This document shows, piece after piece, positions 16,706 through 25,008 of a stretch of 64,000 nucleotides of DNA. Below the pieces are notes generated by a model. The model saw only the letters and a program-made list of their open reading frames with translations, ran no database searches and was not told the DNA's origin. The translations under genes and the position numbers were made by a program. The DNA comes from an uncultured Bacteroidota bacterium (GTDB lineage Bacteria; Bacteroidota; Bacteroidia; Flavobacteriales_D; Sanyastnellaceae). Each line of letters opens with the position of its first letter. Position 1 is the first letter of the stretch. The stretch covers positions 46,200 to 110,199 of the forward strand of contig CAIZGX010000001.1 in assembly GCA_903932685.1 (NCBI GenBank). Direction: 5' to 3'.

Positions 16706-17445
16706 AAAAATTAACCGCCCTTCTTTTTTGTTGTGCATTCTTCGCAATTTCTTTCGGACAAAAATCGAAGTTGTTCAAGGTGGAAAATTCGAAAGCTCCT
16801 TATCATTACTGGTGCTATGAACCCGAAAATTACAATGCTCAAAAAGACAGTGCTTGGCCAGTTATTGTGTTTCTTCACGGAAGAAGTTTAAGCGGAACGA
16901 ATTTAGAAGTTGTTCGGTCTTACGGACTGGTTCATGAATTGGATAAAGGCAGAAATTTTCCAGCAATCATCATTGCGCCGCAAGTGAACAAAGGTGAATC
17001 TTGGAATCCCGATAAGGTAGTTGCTTGCCTTAGTGAAATTCAAAAAAATCATCGCGTAGATTCAACACGCATTTCAATTACGGGAATGAGTTTAGGTGGT
17101 TATGGAACCTTGCATACAGCTGGCCATTACCCTGAAATTTTCTGCGCAGCTGCCGCTTTTTGTGGCGGTGGAAATGCGAAGGATGCGTGCAATCTTTCAA
17201 CAATTCCAGTTTGGGTGGCGCATGGGAAAAAAGACCGGGCGGTTCCTTTTGGTGAATCCTATGGAATTGTAGAGCGTATTAAATCGTGTGACGGGCAAAA
17301 CGTGAAATTCACTGTATTTGAAACGCACGATCACGGTGCATTGGAGCGCATGTTTCGAACAGAGGAGCTTTACGATTTTCTTTTGACCAATAAAAAAGGG
17401 AAGCCAACATACTTCCCTCCTTTCAATAAAAAGTCGTTGAATTAA
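16702..17445 (+). CDS. secreted alpha/beta hydrolase (esterase/polyhydroxybutyrate-depolymerase-like)
   Basis: 247 aa; signal peptide, FLHGRS, nucleophile elbow [27 protein letters not shown]. Confidence 0.82.
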
Positions 17446-17792
17446 ACCAACGTATTCGTTTCTGTATTCGGGAAGATAACCCAAGGCTTGAAGGTTTTTG
17501 CTACTTCAAAGTCCATTTGCGCATATGAACAAACAATAACAATATCGCCTATTGTGCACTTCAATGCAGCTGGTCCGTTCAGGCATATTACGCCACTTCC
17601 TCTTTCACCCAAAATAATGTAGGTTTCAAGACGCTCGCCGTTTGCACAGTTTAGCACTTGAACACGCTCCCCCTCTATCATATTTGCAGCGTCCAACAGA
17701 ATTGGATCTATTGTTATGCTGCCTATATAATTCACATCTGCCTCAGTTACAGTTACTCGGTGAATTTTTGACTTTAAAACCTGAATAATCAT
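17442..17792 (-). CDS. panD: aspartate 1-decarboxylase
   Basis: [29 protein letters not shown] with the Gly-Ser pyruvoyl cleavage site. Confidence 0.95.
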
Positions 17793-17836
17793 AGGCGGCA
17801 AATTTAATCTTCATTTCTCATCTTAGCCCCATAATT

Positions 17837-19199: not shown

Positions 19200-19862
19200 A
19201 TGTTTATAGCATTGCTTCAGAGTTTATCTCTGGCGGGCGCCTCGTGGTTTTTATTGAATGCCGCTAACCCTCTTACTTTGTTTGAAAACGCGTTATTGTC
19301 TGTCGCGGTATTTTATAGCTATTGGGTTTCTCAAAAACTTCATCAAGCCGCCTACTGGTTACCATTACTTGTTATTGCCGGTACAATTACTCTCTCGCCG
19401 AATGTTCATTCGGTTTTAATGTTAGTCGTTTCTCTTTTCACGATAGCCTATTTCCTTCAACATAAAATTTCATTTCGAAAAACACCCTTGTTAAAGAATA
19501 TCACCGTAGCATTATGCTGGTCTATTCTCATTGCAATTCCAGACACCAAAGAAATTTTTCAGTTAGGAGGAAGTGTCTTCTTCACAACTTTAGCGCTTTC
19601 GCTTTGCATTGATTTCGTGCAGCGAAAAGAAGATGAAGGCAAGGTTGAAACGGTTCCACATATTATTGGCAACAACCTCACGCTTTTCTTCGCTTTGATT
19701 TTCGTGTTGATTGGGCACTTTTTCATGCCGACTTCGTTCTTTGCGGGAATATTGGCATTGGCCATTCAAGCAGGTCTCACCTACTTCCCTCAGGAAAAAC
19801 AAAGGGAAGCCCTTCGAGAACTTCCCTTCCTAGCTTATGCTTTAGGAATTTATTTGCTGTAA
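19200..19862 (+). CDS. polytopic membrane protein, distant UbiA-prenyltransferase-like
   Basis: 220 aa, about 8 TM; CIDFVQRKEDEGKVETVPHIIG resembles the second UbiA motif (D..D...G..T.p...G). Confidence 0.5.
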   Translation: MFIALLQSLSLAGASWFLLNAANPLTLFENALLSVAVFYSYWVSQKLHQAAYWLPLLVIAGTITLSPNVHSVLMLVVSLFTIAYFLQHKISFRKTPLLKNITVALCWSILIAIPDTKEIFQLGGSVFFTTLALSLCIDFVQRKEDEGKVETVPHIIGNNLTLFFALIFVLIGHFFMPTSFFAGILALAIQAGLTYFPQEKQREALRELPFLAYALGIYLL

Positions 19863-21145
19863 ACGTGATCTAAGGCGTCGCAGAAATCTACGATTGCCTT
19901 ATCCATGTCTGCATCTGTATGCGCAGCTGAAACGAATCCAACTTCGTAACCACTAGGTCCCAGATAGACACCTCTCTCCAACAAAAATCTATGAAAAGGT
20001 GCAAACAATTGACCGCTGTTTTCTGGAATTTCATCCATGCGACGAATGGCCTTTTCTTTCGAGAAAGAAACCCAAAAAATACTTCCCATATTGAAAATAC
20101 GGAAGACGTAATTCTTTTGATCGGCATGCGTTTGAATGGCACTTACCATCTTCACTGTTTTTCTTTCTAATTCTTCGTAGAAGCCGGGCTTCGCACATTC
20201 CTTCAATTGAGCCAATCCAGCTGCCATGGCAACAGGATTTCCAGAAAGAGTTCCGGCTTGATACACGGGACCTTCTGGAGCAATCTGAGACATAATTTCT
20301 GCGCTTGCACCGTATGCACCTACGGGCATTCCGCCACCAATGATTTTTCCAAATGCAAGAACATCGGGTTGAATTCCGTAATAGCCTGAAGCTCCTTCAA
20401 AACCTAAACGAAATCCGCTAATTACCTCATCGAACAACAACACAATTCCTTCACGCGTGCATACTTCACGTAGGTGTTTTAAAAACACACCGTCTTGAAT
20501 AAGCAGTCCGTTATTCGCAGGAACGGGCTCAATAGCCACAACTGCAATTTGTCCGCGGTACATTTCAACTGCAGCGTCGAACGCCTCAATGTCGTTCAAC
20601 GGAACAACAATTGTTTCGTTCACATAGGCCTGCGGAATTCCGGCGCTGCTGGATGTTCCCAAAGTTGCCAAACCACTTCCAGCTTTAACCAAAAGCGCAT
20701 CGACGTGTCCGTGATAACATCCCTCAAACTTCAAAACTTTATCTCTTCCAGTATATCCTCTCGCTAAACGAATGGCGCTCATTGCGGCCTCAGTTCCGCT
20801 GCTTACAAATCTTATCTTCTCTAAGTATTTGTGACGTTGTAAAATAAAAGAAGCCAATTCGTTCTCTTCTCTGGTTGGTGCGCCGAAGCTGGCTCCTTTA
20901 GCAGCCGTTGTGCATATGGCTTCAGTAACTGAATCGTTAGCATGTCCTAAAATAAGCGGTCCCCATGAGCAGCAGAAATCAATGAATTCATTTCCATCTG
21001 CATCCCAAACATGAGAGCCTTTTCCTCTTTCAAAAAACACTGGATTTCCACCTACTGATTTGAATGCTCTTACTGGAGAATTCACTCCACCTGGAAAATA
21101 CTTCTTCGCTTCCACAAAAAGTGCTTCGCTGTTGCTCTGTTTCAT
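19850..21145 (-). CDS. hemL: glutamate-1-semialdehyde 2,1-aminomutase
   Basis: 431 aa; PGGVNSPVRAFKSVGGNPVFF, LLFDEVISGFRLGFEGASGYYGIQPDVLAFGKIIGGGMPVGAYG. Confidence 0.96.
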   Translation of the reverse strand: MKQSNSEALFVEAKKYFPGGVNSPVRAFKSVGGNPVFFERGKGSHVWDADGNEFIDFCCSWGPLILGHANDSVTEAICTTAAKGASFGAPTREENELASFILQRHKYLEKIRFVSSGTEAAMSAIRLARGYTGRDKVLKFEGCYHGHVDALLVKAGSGLATLGTSSSAGIPQAYVNETIVVPLNDIEAFDAAVEMYRGQIAVVAIEPVPANNGLLIQDGVFLKHLREVCTREGIVLLFDEVISGFRLGFEGASGYYGIQPDVLAFGKIIGGGMPVGAYGASAEIMSQIAPEGPVYQAGTLSGNPVAMAAGLAQLKECAKPGFYEELERKTVKMVSAIQTHADQKNYVFRIFNMGSIFWVSFSKEKAIRRMDEIPENSGQLFAPFHRFLLERGVYLGPSGYEVGFVSAAHTDADMDKAIVDFCDALDHVYSK

Positions 21146-21149
21146 GATG

Positions 21150-21177
21150 CAAACTTACGCTTGAACGAGAAAAACAA
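21150..21177 (-). promoter_or_regulatory. hemL promoter: -33 TTG, N17, -7 TAAGTTTG
   Basis: Minus strand TTG-TTTTTCTCGTTCAAGCG-TAAGTTTG; last base of -7 is 5 nt before the ATG at 21145. Confidence 0.65.
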
Positions 21178-21206
21178 CGTACTTTCGTTGACCACATTTT
21201 TTCAAT

Positions 21207-24200
21207 TTGAAATACAGTTTCACTCTTATCTTGTTTTTGGTTGCTTCCTATGTTGTAGCAATTGACTTCCCTATTGAGTCTATTCAAAAACTAAGAAAAT
21301 ACGGTATAATCGTTTCTCCAGAATGCGGCGTGTACGCAAATAGCATTGCCGTTTCCTTTGAAAATAATTCTTCCTTCAACCTCTCATACAAACTTGGGAC
21401 TTCAGATTCTGCGGGTTTTCAGAGGTACAAGAACCCCATTCAACTTCAACAGAACACGTATATTCAAGTTAAGCTTGAGGGGTCAGGTGCACCTAACACC
21501 GTTTTTATCGGGACATTTATTGTGGGAAGGAATCATACCCTACCTGTTATCTGTTTGAAGGTTAATCCGAAAGAATTTTTCCCTCCATCTGGAATTTATG
21601 ACGGAAAGCTTATTGTTGCAGGCTCAAACGCAAACCCACCACCCGCGGCAGGAAACCAGTTCATTGGCAATTCGTGGAAGAAGACCCCAATACCTTGTTT
21701 CGCTCAATTCTTTTACAACAATAAATTAGTTGAAGCTACCGCTTGTTATGTTAAAACCTTCGGCGGATGGACGCTCGGTCTTCCTGAAAAATCGCTTCAC
21801 CTTTATACCGACACACTTGTTGGAAAGAAAGAGTTCGAATATAAATTTTTCAAAAACAAACCCTACAACGAATTCGAACATTTGGTTTTAAGAACAAGCG
21901 GAAGTGACCAAAATTTCACACGCTTCAAAGATATTAGTATATCGAGTTTTGCAGCAGAACTCATGGTCGACTATATGGATTACCAGCAGGCTATTTTGTA
22001 CGTAAACGACAACTACTTTGGAATAATCAACCTTCGTGAAAAAATCAATAAGGAGTATCTCGGTTACAATCACAACGCAGCCAAGAACTTCACTCAGCTG
22101 CTCGAGCAAGAAGGAGAAAACTCGAAAGATTACCAGACATTAAAGGACTTCGCTGCCGCGCATTACGCCGATTCAAACTTCCCCGAAGAAATTGAAAAGT
22201 TGATGGATTTGGAAGATTATTTCAATTACAGTTTTCTCGAAATTTATATCGCCAACGTTGATTCGCGGGGAAATATCCGTTATTGGAAAGACGCTTCTTC
22301 AGACAACAAATGGCATTGGATTTATTACGATGGTGATTTAGCCTGTGCTGGGAATTTCCACCGTCAGAATTTTTTGTTAGAACGAATAAGTCCTGTCCCA
22401 ACCGATTGGTACAATCCTACTTGGGTCACGCATCTTCTTCGTTACACCACTTTAAATCCTGAGCTTCGTAATCGCTTCGTTCAGCAAACCTGTTTGCTCA
22501 TGAGCACTGTCTTGCACAAAGACTCCGTTGTAAATCGCATAGATCAGTTTGCTAATGCCATTGCGCCAGAGATTCCGTACCACGTGAATCGATTTCCAAT
22601 TGAACAAAAAGAAACTGAAAAAGGTTGGCGGAACCAAGTAAGTAATTACAGAAGGTTTTGGGAAATTCGTCCTGTTTCTATGTATCGTCATGTGAAAGAA
22701 ACTTATGGATTGGGAGACTCTGTTCATCTCAAGTTGACAACAAATATTCCGAATGAAAAATTACTGATTGTCAATGAATCGAAAATTCATTTCAATAAAG
22801 TTGAAGGAGACTTCTTCAAAAACATTCCTTTACCGTTAGCCGTTCCTGAGCACACGTTCCCTTTTGTATTCAAGCAGTGGAGCGATGGCGTTAAAGACAA
22901 AAAACGCGTTTTAGATTGTTCAAATTCTCTTACAATTGAAGCCACATTCGCACATGCGCCGCTTTCAGAACTGAAAGGAAAATTGCACATCCGAAGATTT
23001 GGTAGCGAGATGAAAGCGAAAAATCCAATGAAATGGATTGAAATTATTAATCAGAGCAACGAACCTATTAATCTCAACGGAATCGTTCTTTACGATTCTC
23101 CGAATGGAATCGTTGACAATCTTTTCACGCATACTGCTGGACAAACGATTGCCCCCTTAAGTTCAGCCATATTCGTAAGTCCATTGCACACCAACGACAT
23201 TGGCAAAACACTTCAGCTGCCGGAAGGAACAACTATCTATCCCCTCGAATTTCCTACAGGGTTTCAAACAAATCATTCATTTTATCTTGGCGATAAAGAG
23301 AACGCGGTTATTGACAGTATGCTCGTTCAATTTCCCGACTCAATTTTTACACATGGTAAGCATTTCGTTTGTTTCTTTGATGAAAATGGAAATATCTCTT
23401 ACGATCGAGTTACGCAAAAAACAAAATTCGACTGGGACGTAACAGAAGTTAAATCGACAAAACTAATTATGAGTAACCTGAGTGAACTTCCCTTGTGGAT
23501 CTATTTGAGCAATGGTTTTGCGTTATTGCTTTATGTTCTTTTGGCTTTTTTCAAAAAAATAAAATGGCGCGATGCTATTCGGTATTTCGCATTTACGGCG
23601 CTTGCAATTGGCCTACTCTTTTGGGCATACAAAGGCGTTTCAATTCAACAGATAGTTGGACAAATTATAAATACAAATTGGGTTTGGATATTGGCTGCAT
23701 TGGCCATTGAATATGTTTCTGTTATATTCAGAGGAATTCGTTGGAACCAATTGTTGAAGCCGCTTGGACATAAAGCAAATACCTGGAATGCCATACACGC
23801 AGTTGCTTTCGGATACTGCATGAACGATTTGGTTCCGAGAAGCGGAGAAGTAGCGCGTTGTACCTTGCTTTTCAAATCAGATAAAATTCCAGTATCCACA
23901 TTAGTTGGAACCGTTATCGTAGAACGTGTGATAGACATGGTGATGTTCGGCTTACTTCTTCTCTGGGGTATTTTACTCTTGCCTTCAACGTTGTCTTCGT
24001 TAATGAATGAAACGAAAAGTCCAGGATTCTCAATGGAATTAGGAATAGCCTTAATCGTTCTAGCGGTTATCGGTATCTTGGTGTTACGCTATATTTTGAA
24101 ACACACCTTCAAAAACAAATTCATTGAAAAATTCGCAGAATTTATTCGTGGCACTTGGAAAGCATTTTTAAGTGTTGGAAAAATTGAAGGCAAATTCAAA

Positions 24201-24563
24201 TTCATTTTTCTAACTGTTGGAATTTGGGGAGCTTGGTTACTCATGACTTGGTTCAATCTTCTGGCTGTTCCAGGATGTGAGCATATGGGCTTGAATGAAT
24301 CTGTATTCTTAATGATTTGTGCAAGTTTGGCCATGCTTGCTCCAACACCAGGCGGACTGGGTGCATTTCATTCCATAACAATCATTGGGTTCATTGTCTT
24401 GGGGTATGCAGATGAAAACAACGCTACTACTTCCCTGCTCGGTTTAACCTTTGCAACAGTTTCTTGGTCTACAAGAACCCTCATGGAGATTTTATCTGGA
24501 TTCGTTGGTTTCCTTATTGTATCGTATCGCATTAAATATGGAAAAACTACTTCAGCAAATTAA
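21207..24563 (+). CDS. fusion protein: CHB_HEX_C-like + CotH kinase + lamin-tail domain + LPG-synthase/flippase (UPF0104-like) TM domain
   Basis: 1118 aa uninterrupted ORF (TTG start). CotH features: GIYDGKLIV, ILYVNDNYFGIINLREKINKEYLG, IANVDSRGNIRYW, WIYYDGDLA. LTD: KWIEIINQSNEPINLNGIVLYDS. TM part from about residue 763: VIFRGIRWNQLLKPLG, NDLVPRSGEVARC, APTPGGLGAFHS. Confidence 0.85.
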   Translation: MKYSFTLILFLVASYVVAIDFPIESIQKLRKYGIIVSPECGVYANSIAVSFENNSSFNLSYKLGTSDSAGFQRYKNPIQLQQNTYIQVKLEGSGAPNTVFIGTFIVGRNHTLPVICLKVNPKEFFPPSGIYDGKLIVAGSNANPPPAAGNQFIGNSWKKTPIPCFAQFFYNNKLVEATACYVKTFGGWTLGLPEKSLHLYTDTLVGKKEFEYKFFKNKPYNEFEHLVLRTSGSDQNFTRFKDISISSFAAELMVDYMDYQQAILYVNDNYFGIINLREKINKEYLGYNHNAAKNFTQLLEQEGENSKDYQTLKDFAAAHYADSNFPEEIEKLMDLEDYFNYSFLEIYIANVDSRGNIRYWKDASSDNKWHWIYYDGDLACAGNFHRQNFLLERISPVPTDWYNPTWVTHLLRYTTLNPELRNRFVQQTCLLMSTVLHKDSVVNRIDQFANAIAPEIPYHVNRFPIEQKETEKGWRNQVSNYRRFWEIRPVSMYRHVKETYGLGDSVHLKLTTNIPNEKLLIVNESKIHFNKVEGDFFKNIPLPLAVPEHTFPFVFKQWSDGVKDKKRVLDCSNSLTIEATFAHAPLSELKGKLHIRRFGSEMKAKNPMKWIEIINQSNEPINLNGIVLYDSPNGIVDNLFTHTAGQTIAPLSSAIFVSPLHTNDIGKTLQLPEGTTIYPLEFPTGFQTNHSFYLGDKENAVIDSMLVQFPDSIFTHGKHFVCFFDENGNISYDRVTQKTKFDWDVTEVKSTKLIMSNLSELPLWIYLSNGFALLLYVLLAFFKKIKWRDAIRYFAFTALAIGLLFWAYKGVSIQQIVGQIINTNWVWILAALAIEYVSVIFRGIRWNQLLKPLGHKANTWNAIHAVAFGYCMNDLVPRSGEVARCTLLFKSDKIPVSTLVGTVIVERVIDMVMFGLLLLWGILLLPSTLSSLMNETKSPGFSMELGIALIVLAVIGILVLRYILKHTFKNKFIEKFAEFIRGTWKAFLSVGKIEGKFKFIFLTVGIWGAWLLMTWFNLLAVPGCEHMGLNESVFLMICASLAMLAPTPGGLGAFHSITIIGFIVLGYADENNATTSLLGLTFATVSWSTRTLMEILSGFVGFLIVSYRIKYGKTTSAN

Positions 24564-25008
24564 GGCCTGGCGTGACGCTGGAGAAACCATTGTTTTTACC
24601 AATGGTGTTTTCGATATTTTGCATGTTGGTCATGTGACCTATCTTGAGCAGGCTGCTGCATCAGGCACTAGGCTGATTATAGGCGTTAACAGCGACGCTT
24701 CTGTGCGCAGCTTGAACAAAGGCCCTGAACGCCCTATCAATCCCGAATGGGCCCGTGTACGTGTGCTTGAAGCACTTCGCTGTGTAGATGCCGCAATCGT
24801 ATTTTCTGACCACACTCCTCTTGAACTTATTCTTGCTATTCAGCCCGATATTTTAGTGAAAGGCGGCGATTACAATCCAGATGAAACCAACGAATCGAAC
24901 AAGACATACATGGTGGGTTCGAAGGAAGTGAAAGCTTCCGGTGGAAAAGCCATTGCTATTCCTTTGGTTGAAGGATTTTCAACGACGAATATTCTTAGTA
25001 AGCGATAA
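24538..25008 (+). CDS. rfaE2: D-glycero-beta-D-manno-heptose 1-phosphate adenylyltransferase (RfaE domain II type nucleotidyltransferase)
   Basis: FTNGVFDILHVGHVTYLEQA, DILVKGGDYNPDET. Start at ATG 24538, overlapping the preceding ORF by 26 nt. Confidence 0.88.
   Translation: MEKLLQQIKAWRDAGETIVFTNGVFDILHVGHVTYLEQAAASGTRLIIGVNSDASVRSLNKGPERPINPEWARVRVLEALRCVDAAIVFSDHTPLELILAIQPDILVKGGDYNPDETNESNKTYMVGSKEVKASGGKAIAIPLVEGFSTTNILSKR

Follow-up and report, generated by a model that had tools for sequence, protein, structure and literature searches.

Our analysis showed that one gene of an uncultured Bacteroidota bacterium encodes a genus-restricted, selectively maintained fusion of two known protein families, an exported CotH kinase-like protein and a lipid translocase, in a combination for which we found no description in the searchable literature. 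The gene lies in the window, the 64,000-nucleotide stretch of contig CAIZGX010000001.1 that was analysed here, where an uninterrupted plus-strand frame of 1118 codons (21207-24563) begins at TTG and encodes, in order, a signal peptide, an Fn3-like domain, a CotH kinase domain, a lamin-tail-like domain, a connecting helix (TM0), and a lipid translocase of the MprF type (UPF0104/PplT). The original prediction of a fusion within a single ORF was thus confirmed, as there is one open 1118-aa frame and the same frame is present in orthologues. The predicted domain list of CotH, lamin tail, and flippase also held, although it was incomplete, as the Fn3-like domain (~36-106) and an InlB-repeat-like stretch (~505-583) had been overlooked. 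Similarly, the membrane part had been placed from residue ~763 onward, and while its assignment to a flippase family was correct, the helix at ~761-789 is a separate connecting helix and the flippase proper begins at ~790. The coordinates of all features are given in Table 1.

Table 1. Features of the fusion locus, in positions of the window.
Feature	Position	Strand	Basis
hemL (glutamate-1-semialdehyde aminotransferase)	19850..21145	-	divergent upstream neighbour; name from sequence
Candidate Bacteroidota-type promoter TACTTTCG	21170..21190	+	upstream-region alignment; near -7 TAnnTTTG consensus
Whole fusion gene, 1118 aa, TTG start	21207..24563	+	genes of G001 and G002 equally long, no indels
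Signal peptide, residues 1-19	21207..21263	+	sequence; N-terminus of same kind in relatives
Fn3/chitobiase-like beta domain, residues ~36-106	21312..21524	+	fold model; Pfam in homologues
CotH kinase domain, residues 183-490	21753..22676	+	Pfam PF08757; Foldseek to 5JD9/5JDA
Catalytic core D352, N356 (NVDSRGN) and D375, D377 (YYDGD)	22260..22337	+	invariant in 12 members; mapped via L058
Lamin-tail (LTD) Ig-like domain, residues ~590-700	22974..23306	+	Pfam sub-threshold; lamin Ig domains matched by Foldseek
Linker up to internal Met755, junction coding throughout	23307..23468	+	dN/dS, codon-position pattern
Internal Met755 and connecting helix TM0 (~761-789)	23469..23573	+	alignments, model
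MprF/UPF0104/PplT-type lipid translocase, residues ~791-1118	23577..24560	+	PF03706; Foldseek
rfaE2-like nucleotidyltransferase gene	24541..25008	+	start overlaps fusion gene end

Translation most likely begins at the TTG, to judge from the alignment of the 5' ends. This codon is kept in all four loci that have a 5' end (G000, G001, G002, and G008), and just upstream of it a T-run differs in length by one base, which breaks the frame and makes a start further upstream unlikely. The candidate promoter is kept in most relatives, fused as well as unfused; TAnnTTTG is the -7 promoter consensus of Bacteroidota.

Several lines of evidence indicate that the fusion is genuine. Both halves are present over all 1118 residues in G002 (89% identical) and G001 (86%), while the orthologue of G005 spans residue 320, where its contig stops, to the end. 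The fusion genes of G000, G001, and G002 have identical lengths and zero indels. Where dN/dS could be computed, it was mostly 0.04-0.2 in the segments of the ectodomain and in the linker (701-742), some short segments having higher values that are based on very few synonymous changes, and synonymous sites are saturated relative to G001 over most of the ectodomain. In the 14 codons preceding Met755, 8 of the 13 differences between G000 and G001 fall at third positions, which together with the low dN/dS indicates that the junction is coding and constrained. On these substitution patterns, the fusion frame is under strong purifying selection, junction included. All genomes are draft assemblies, so an assembly or sequencing error that merged two genes must be considered, but we give this reading practically no credence and rule it out, because the identical in-frame junction occurs in the assemblies of four species and is under purifying selection. 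The arrangement named at the outset as a sign of such an error, a stop at the junction that divides the frame into two genes, was not seen; the relatives are either fused or without the CotH part.

To describe the ectodomain, we combined profile matches with a fold model (mean pLDDT 76.5). The Pfam CotH profile (PF08757) scored 89 bits (E 5e-25), above its cut-off of 23.8, and Foldseek matched the fold to B. cereus CotH (5JD9/5JDA) with E 8e-12, probability 1.00, and a TM score of 0.70 on the target. The model has Fn3-like strands at 34-106, a region for which homologues L012 and L020 have Pfam Fn3_assoc/CHB_HEX_C_1 matches, and the InlB-repeat-like stretch is likewise suggested by the model and by Pfam matches in relatives. 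The Pfam LTD profile (PF00932) matched residues 590-662 with 25.2 bits (E 2e-5), below its cut-off of 34.3, and Foldseek matched this region to the lamin Ig-like fold (1ifr, 3umn, and 2lll; probability 1.00, TM 0.65-0.69 on the target). Residues K195, E278, D352, N356, D375, and D377 are invariant across 12 homologues, and the last four of these align, via the paralogue L058, with the NxD...N and DxD motifs in 5JD9. The prediction of an exported CotH-type domain with its catalytic residues was therefore borne out, as D352 and D375 correspond to D228 and D251 of B. subtilis CotH with an equal spacing of 23 residues, and changing either aspartate abolishes the activity of the B. subtilis protein (PMC7821199). 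It was L058 that linked the CotH domain to 5JD9 in a PDB search; the PDB sequence search with the fusion protein gave no relevant match, and the one with the family profile gave weak, irrelevant matches only. The genome has five other CotH proteins, whose C-termini, where the end was read, we take to be of the type 9 secretion kind, and among those with the end read the fusion is the sole CotH protein found to stay in the inner membrane. A CotH protein of 1000 aa with a T9SS-type tail (L063:16-3015) adjoins a panB-like gene, and CotH frames of about this size recur across the genus.

For the membrane part, the earlier claim of a flippase-like domain agrees with both the profile and the fold matches. 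The Pfam LPG_synthase_TM profile (PF03706) matched residues 798-1078 with E 8e-36 and 124.4 bits (cut-off 33.4), and TIGR00374 (NCBIfam) scored 69.7 against a cut-off of 43.2, while the model for bifunctional MprF (NF033480) gave 22.4 bits against a cut-off of 600 and there is no synthase domain. The five best PDB matches in Foldseek were all MprF translocases (probability 1.00, best E 0.0024). In the model of the membrane domain (mean pLDDT 81.5), TM0 precedes the MprF-like fold, and the helix pairs 105-121/126-138 and 275-288/295-310 look like re-entrant hairpins. Proteins of the UPF0104/COG0392 family are predicted flippases for a lipid or lipid-linked sugar, and some are composite (PMC5898192). 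The flippase in the fusion is the sole PF03706 gene of the genome and its pairing with rfaE2 is conserved across the family, so the old flippase job presumably continues. Fused and unfused species cannot be told apart at any site of the flippase core; the only two sites that distinguish them are both in TM0. In most relatives, moreover, the flippase is unfused. The ectodomain thus looks like an accessory module on a housekeeping flippase rather than an integrated part. Upstream, hemL is the neighbour in all genus members where that side is present. In several other genera, a panD-like gene directly precedes the flippase-rfaE2 pair; in the window, a panD-like gene (17442-17801) is ~4 kb off, and hemL occupies its place.

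We found the fusion only in one freshwater Flavobacteriales genus. A frame of at least 799 aa around the flippase is present only in G000, G001, G002, and G005 among 114 genomes of the family. At the order level (245 genomes), no frame >452 aa was found outside the genus among the matches listed, and across the phylum (139 genomes) none >517 aa among the matches listed; a rare distant fusion could exist beyond these. A plasmid search for the fusion gave no match. The architecture itself did not turn up outside the genus in the family genomes or among the matches listed for the order and phylum. The suggestion of an undescribed system stands as far as the combination is concerned, for which our literature search, which did not cover the PplT-fusion survey of Hauser et al. 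2022, found no description of CotH together with a flippase; it does not stand for a widespread system, as the fusion is a rare variant at the genus level. In G003, G004, G006, and G007, the flippase is kept, flanked by hemL and rfaE2 as in the fusion, and the ectodomain is absent, showing that its loss is tolerated. Met755 is the start codon of the gene in these unfused relatives (by sequence in G003, G004, and G006, by alignment in G007) and is kept in all fused ones. In G008 (L035:1027-2689), a divergent N-terminal piece, 65% identical, runs out of frame into the sequence from residue 705 on, and the flippase is intact despite the frame break; the deletion in the CotH part may be real, or the locus may be an assembly chimera. 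This divergent ectodomain allele was constrained in its past. The public records L032, L035, and L036 are titled Chryseobacterium gleum but belong to this genus of small genomes and seem to be mislabelled.

To gain insight into the origin of the fusion, we compared it with unfused CotH homologues (L041, L038, L012, L020, and others), which are 630-860 aa long and have a signal peptide, a single C-terminal helix, and a basic tail. L041, from G006, and L038 show 33% and 34% identity, respectively. Their C-terminal anchor aligns with TM0, which makes the fusion topologically coherent. In the other genera examined, the flippase begins at about residue 788 and is without TM0, while TM0 is present in all members of the genus with a known start, fused or unfused. 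On the simplest reading, a single-anchor CotH gene joined the flippase in an ancestor, and several later losses of the ectodomain left the anchor helix behind. Such an early fusion followed by losses is favoured by the distribution of states on the tree, where the sister species G001 and G004 are fused and unfused, respectively, and by a weak similarity found upstream in G006 (shuffle p ~0.001). The flippase of G000 is nearer to that of G001 than the ectodomain is, and nearer to those of the unfused G004 and G006 than to that of G002, so that recombination at the locus is evident from sequence distances; because of it, the direction (ancestral or lost) is not proven. Elsewhere in its genome, G006 has an unfused single-anchor CotH-LTD relative (L041:2850-5237).

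The reading that we favour, with some reserve, is a true fusion, in which a C-terminally anchored periplasmic CotH/lamin-tail protein is joined to the flippase of the flippase-rfaE2 pair and the CotH domain acts at the periplasmic face. We infer the topology, enzymatic activity, and substrate as follows. The ectodomain of the type-I CotH part would be exported by the signal peptide, TM0 would cross from the periplasm to the cytoplasm with KKIKWRD as a positive-inside loop, and the 8-helix translocase would then have its usual N-in orientation, making the product one inner-membrane protein. The flippase would most likely retain its ancestral translocation of a lipid or lipid-linked sugar, and the CotH domain would most likely be a phosphotransferase (or a related nucleotidyl-transfer enzyme) for substrates on the periplasmic side of the inner membrane; the fusion would keep this domain near the lipid exit site. 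Against this explanation, no core site tracks the fused state, so a coupling of CotH and flippase has left no trace there; Met755 could still give a separate flippase; and, to our knowledge, free ATP is not expected in the Gram-negative periplasm.

Not far behind is the possibility that the CotH protein uses the extra helix of the flippase as a tether and that the two have unrelated jobs. It would explain why the core residues do not follow the fused state while the two TM0 sites do and why the sisters G001 and G004 can differ, and a single anchor suffices for the homologues; however, the fused frame has been retained in both subclades of the genus at saturated synonymous sites, and a plain anchor would be easily regained. 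We consider it doubtful that the gene gives two products, the full-length fusion and a free flippase begun at Met755. This methionine does start the unfused flippases and persists in all fused species, and the flippase of G008 needs its own start because what lies upstream is not in frame with it, but the codons immediately preceding Met755 are constrained as coding sequence. Less probable again is the original idea, which our results do not so far support, that the CotH domain modifies a lipid or lipid-linked glycan brought to the outer leaflet by the fused flippase, with proximity conferring selectivity. The domain of MprF is a promiscuous scramblase, domains of the MprF type are frequently joined to enzymes that modify lipids, and the proximity of the fused enzyme has been proposed to set the substrate (PMC11980842). 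Composite UPF0104 members are known too (PMC5898192), and a survey of kinases places the FAM20/CotH group in a cluster with Legionella families for which an action on lipids has been suggested (PMC9758233). The retained catalytic residues also fit, but the partner enzymes that are known, the MprF synthase for instance, work on the cytoplasmic side, ATP would need a source outside, the described CotH substrates are proteins, and the flippase core is without adaptation. The most specific version, in which the periplasmic CotH domain phosphorylates the lipid or lipid-linked sugar from its own flippase, strikes us as a shade more improbable still.

The design of our favoured true fusion resembles that of other flippase-enzyme fusions, with the enzyme on what would be the opposite side of the membrane. 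MprF (lysyl/alanyl-PG synthase-flippase) also joins a translocase of the same fold to an enzyme, but that enzyme is a cytoplasmic, C-terminal aminoacyl-PG synthase, whereas the CotH domain of the present fusion is N-terminal and exported. AglD-type proteins are likewise composites with a UPF0104 domain, their enzyme being an N-terminal glycosyltransferase (PMC5898192) rather than an exported kinase-fold domain. Standalone UPF0104/PplT proteins (E. coli YbhN, P. aeruginosa GpgF, and Flavobacteriales homologues beside rfaE2) share the translocase domain, and unfused flippases of the same genus are 70-93% identical to it, but they are without the ectodomain and, in the other genera examined, without TM0. 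Spore coat CotH of B. subtilis and B. cereus shares the fold and the catalytic aspartates, with 12% identity in the aligned fold, but the CotH domain of the fusion is exported and membrane-bound. The single-anchor Bacteroidota CotH-LTD proteins have the same ectodomain order (Fn3-like, CotH, InlB-like, LTD), but where the fusion continues into a flippase, they terminate in a single helix with a basic tail. The substrates of UPF0104 flippases and of the many secreted Bacteroidota CotH proteins are mostly unknown. The fusion ties both families together physically and offers a testable guess for each, and close species with and without the ectodomain could readily be compared by lipidomics and phosphoproteomics. 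The fusion also illustrates how a connecting helix of N-out orientation would allow an exported enzyme to be added onto a translocase. In some sister genera, a different insert of ~90 residues lies between flippase helices 1 and 2 (L027:1162-2448 and L029:1489-2778), with similar frame lengths in G014, G020, and G013; this insert is probably periplasmic, an independently added ectodomain on the same flippase.
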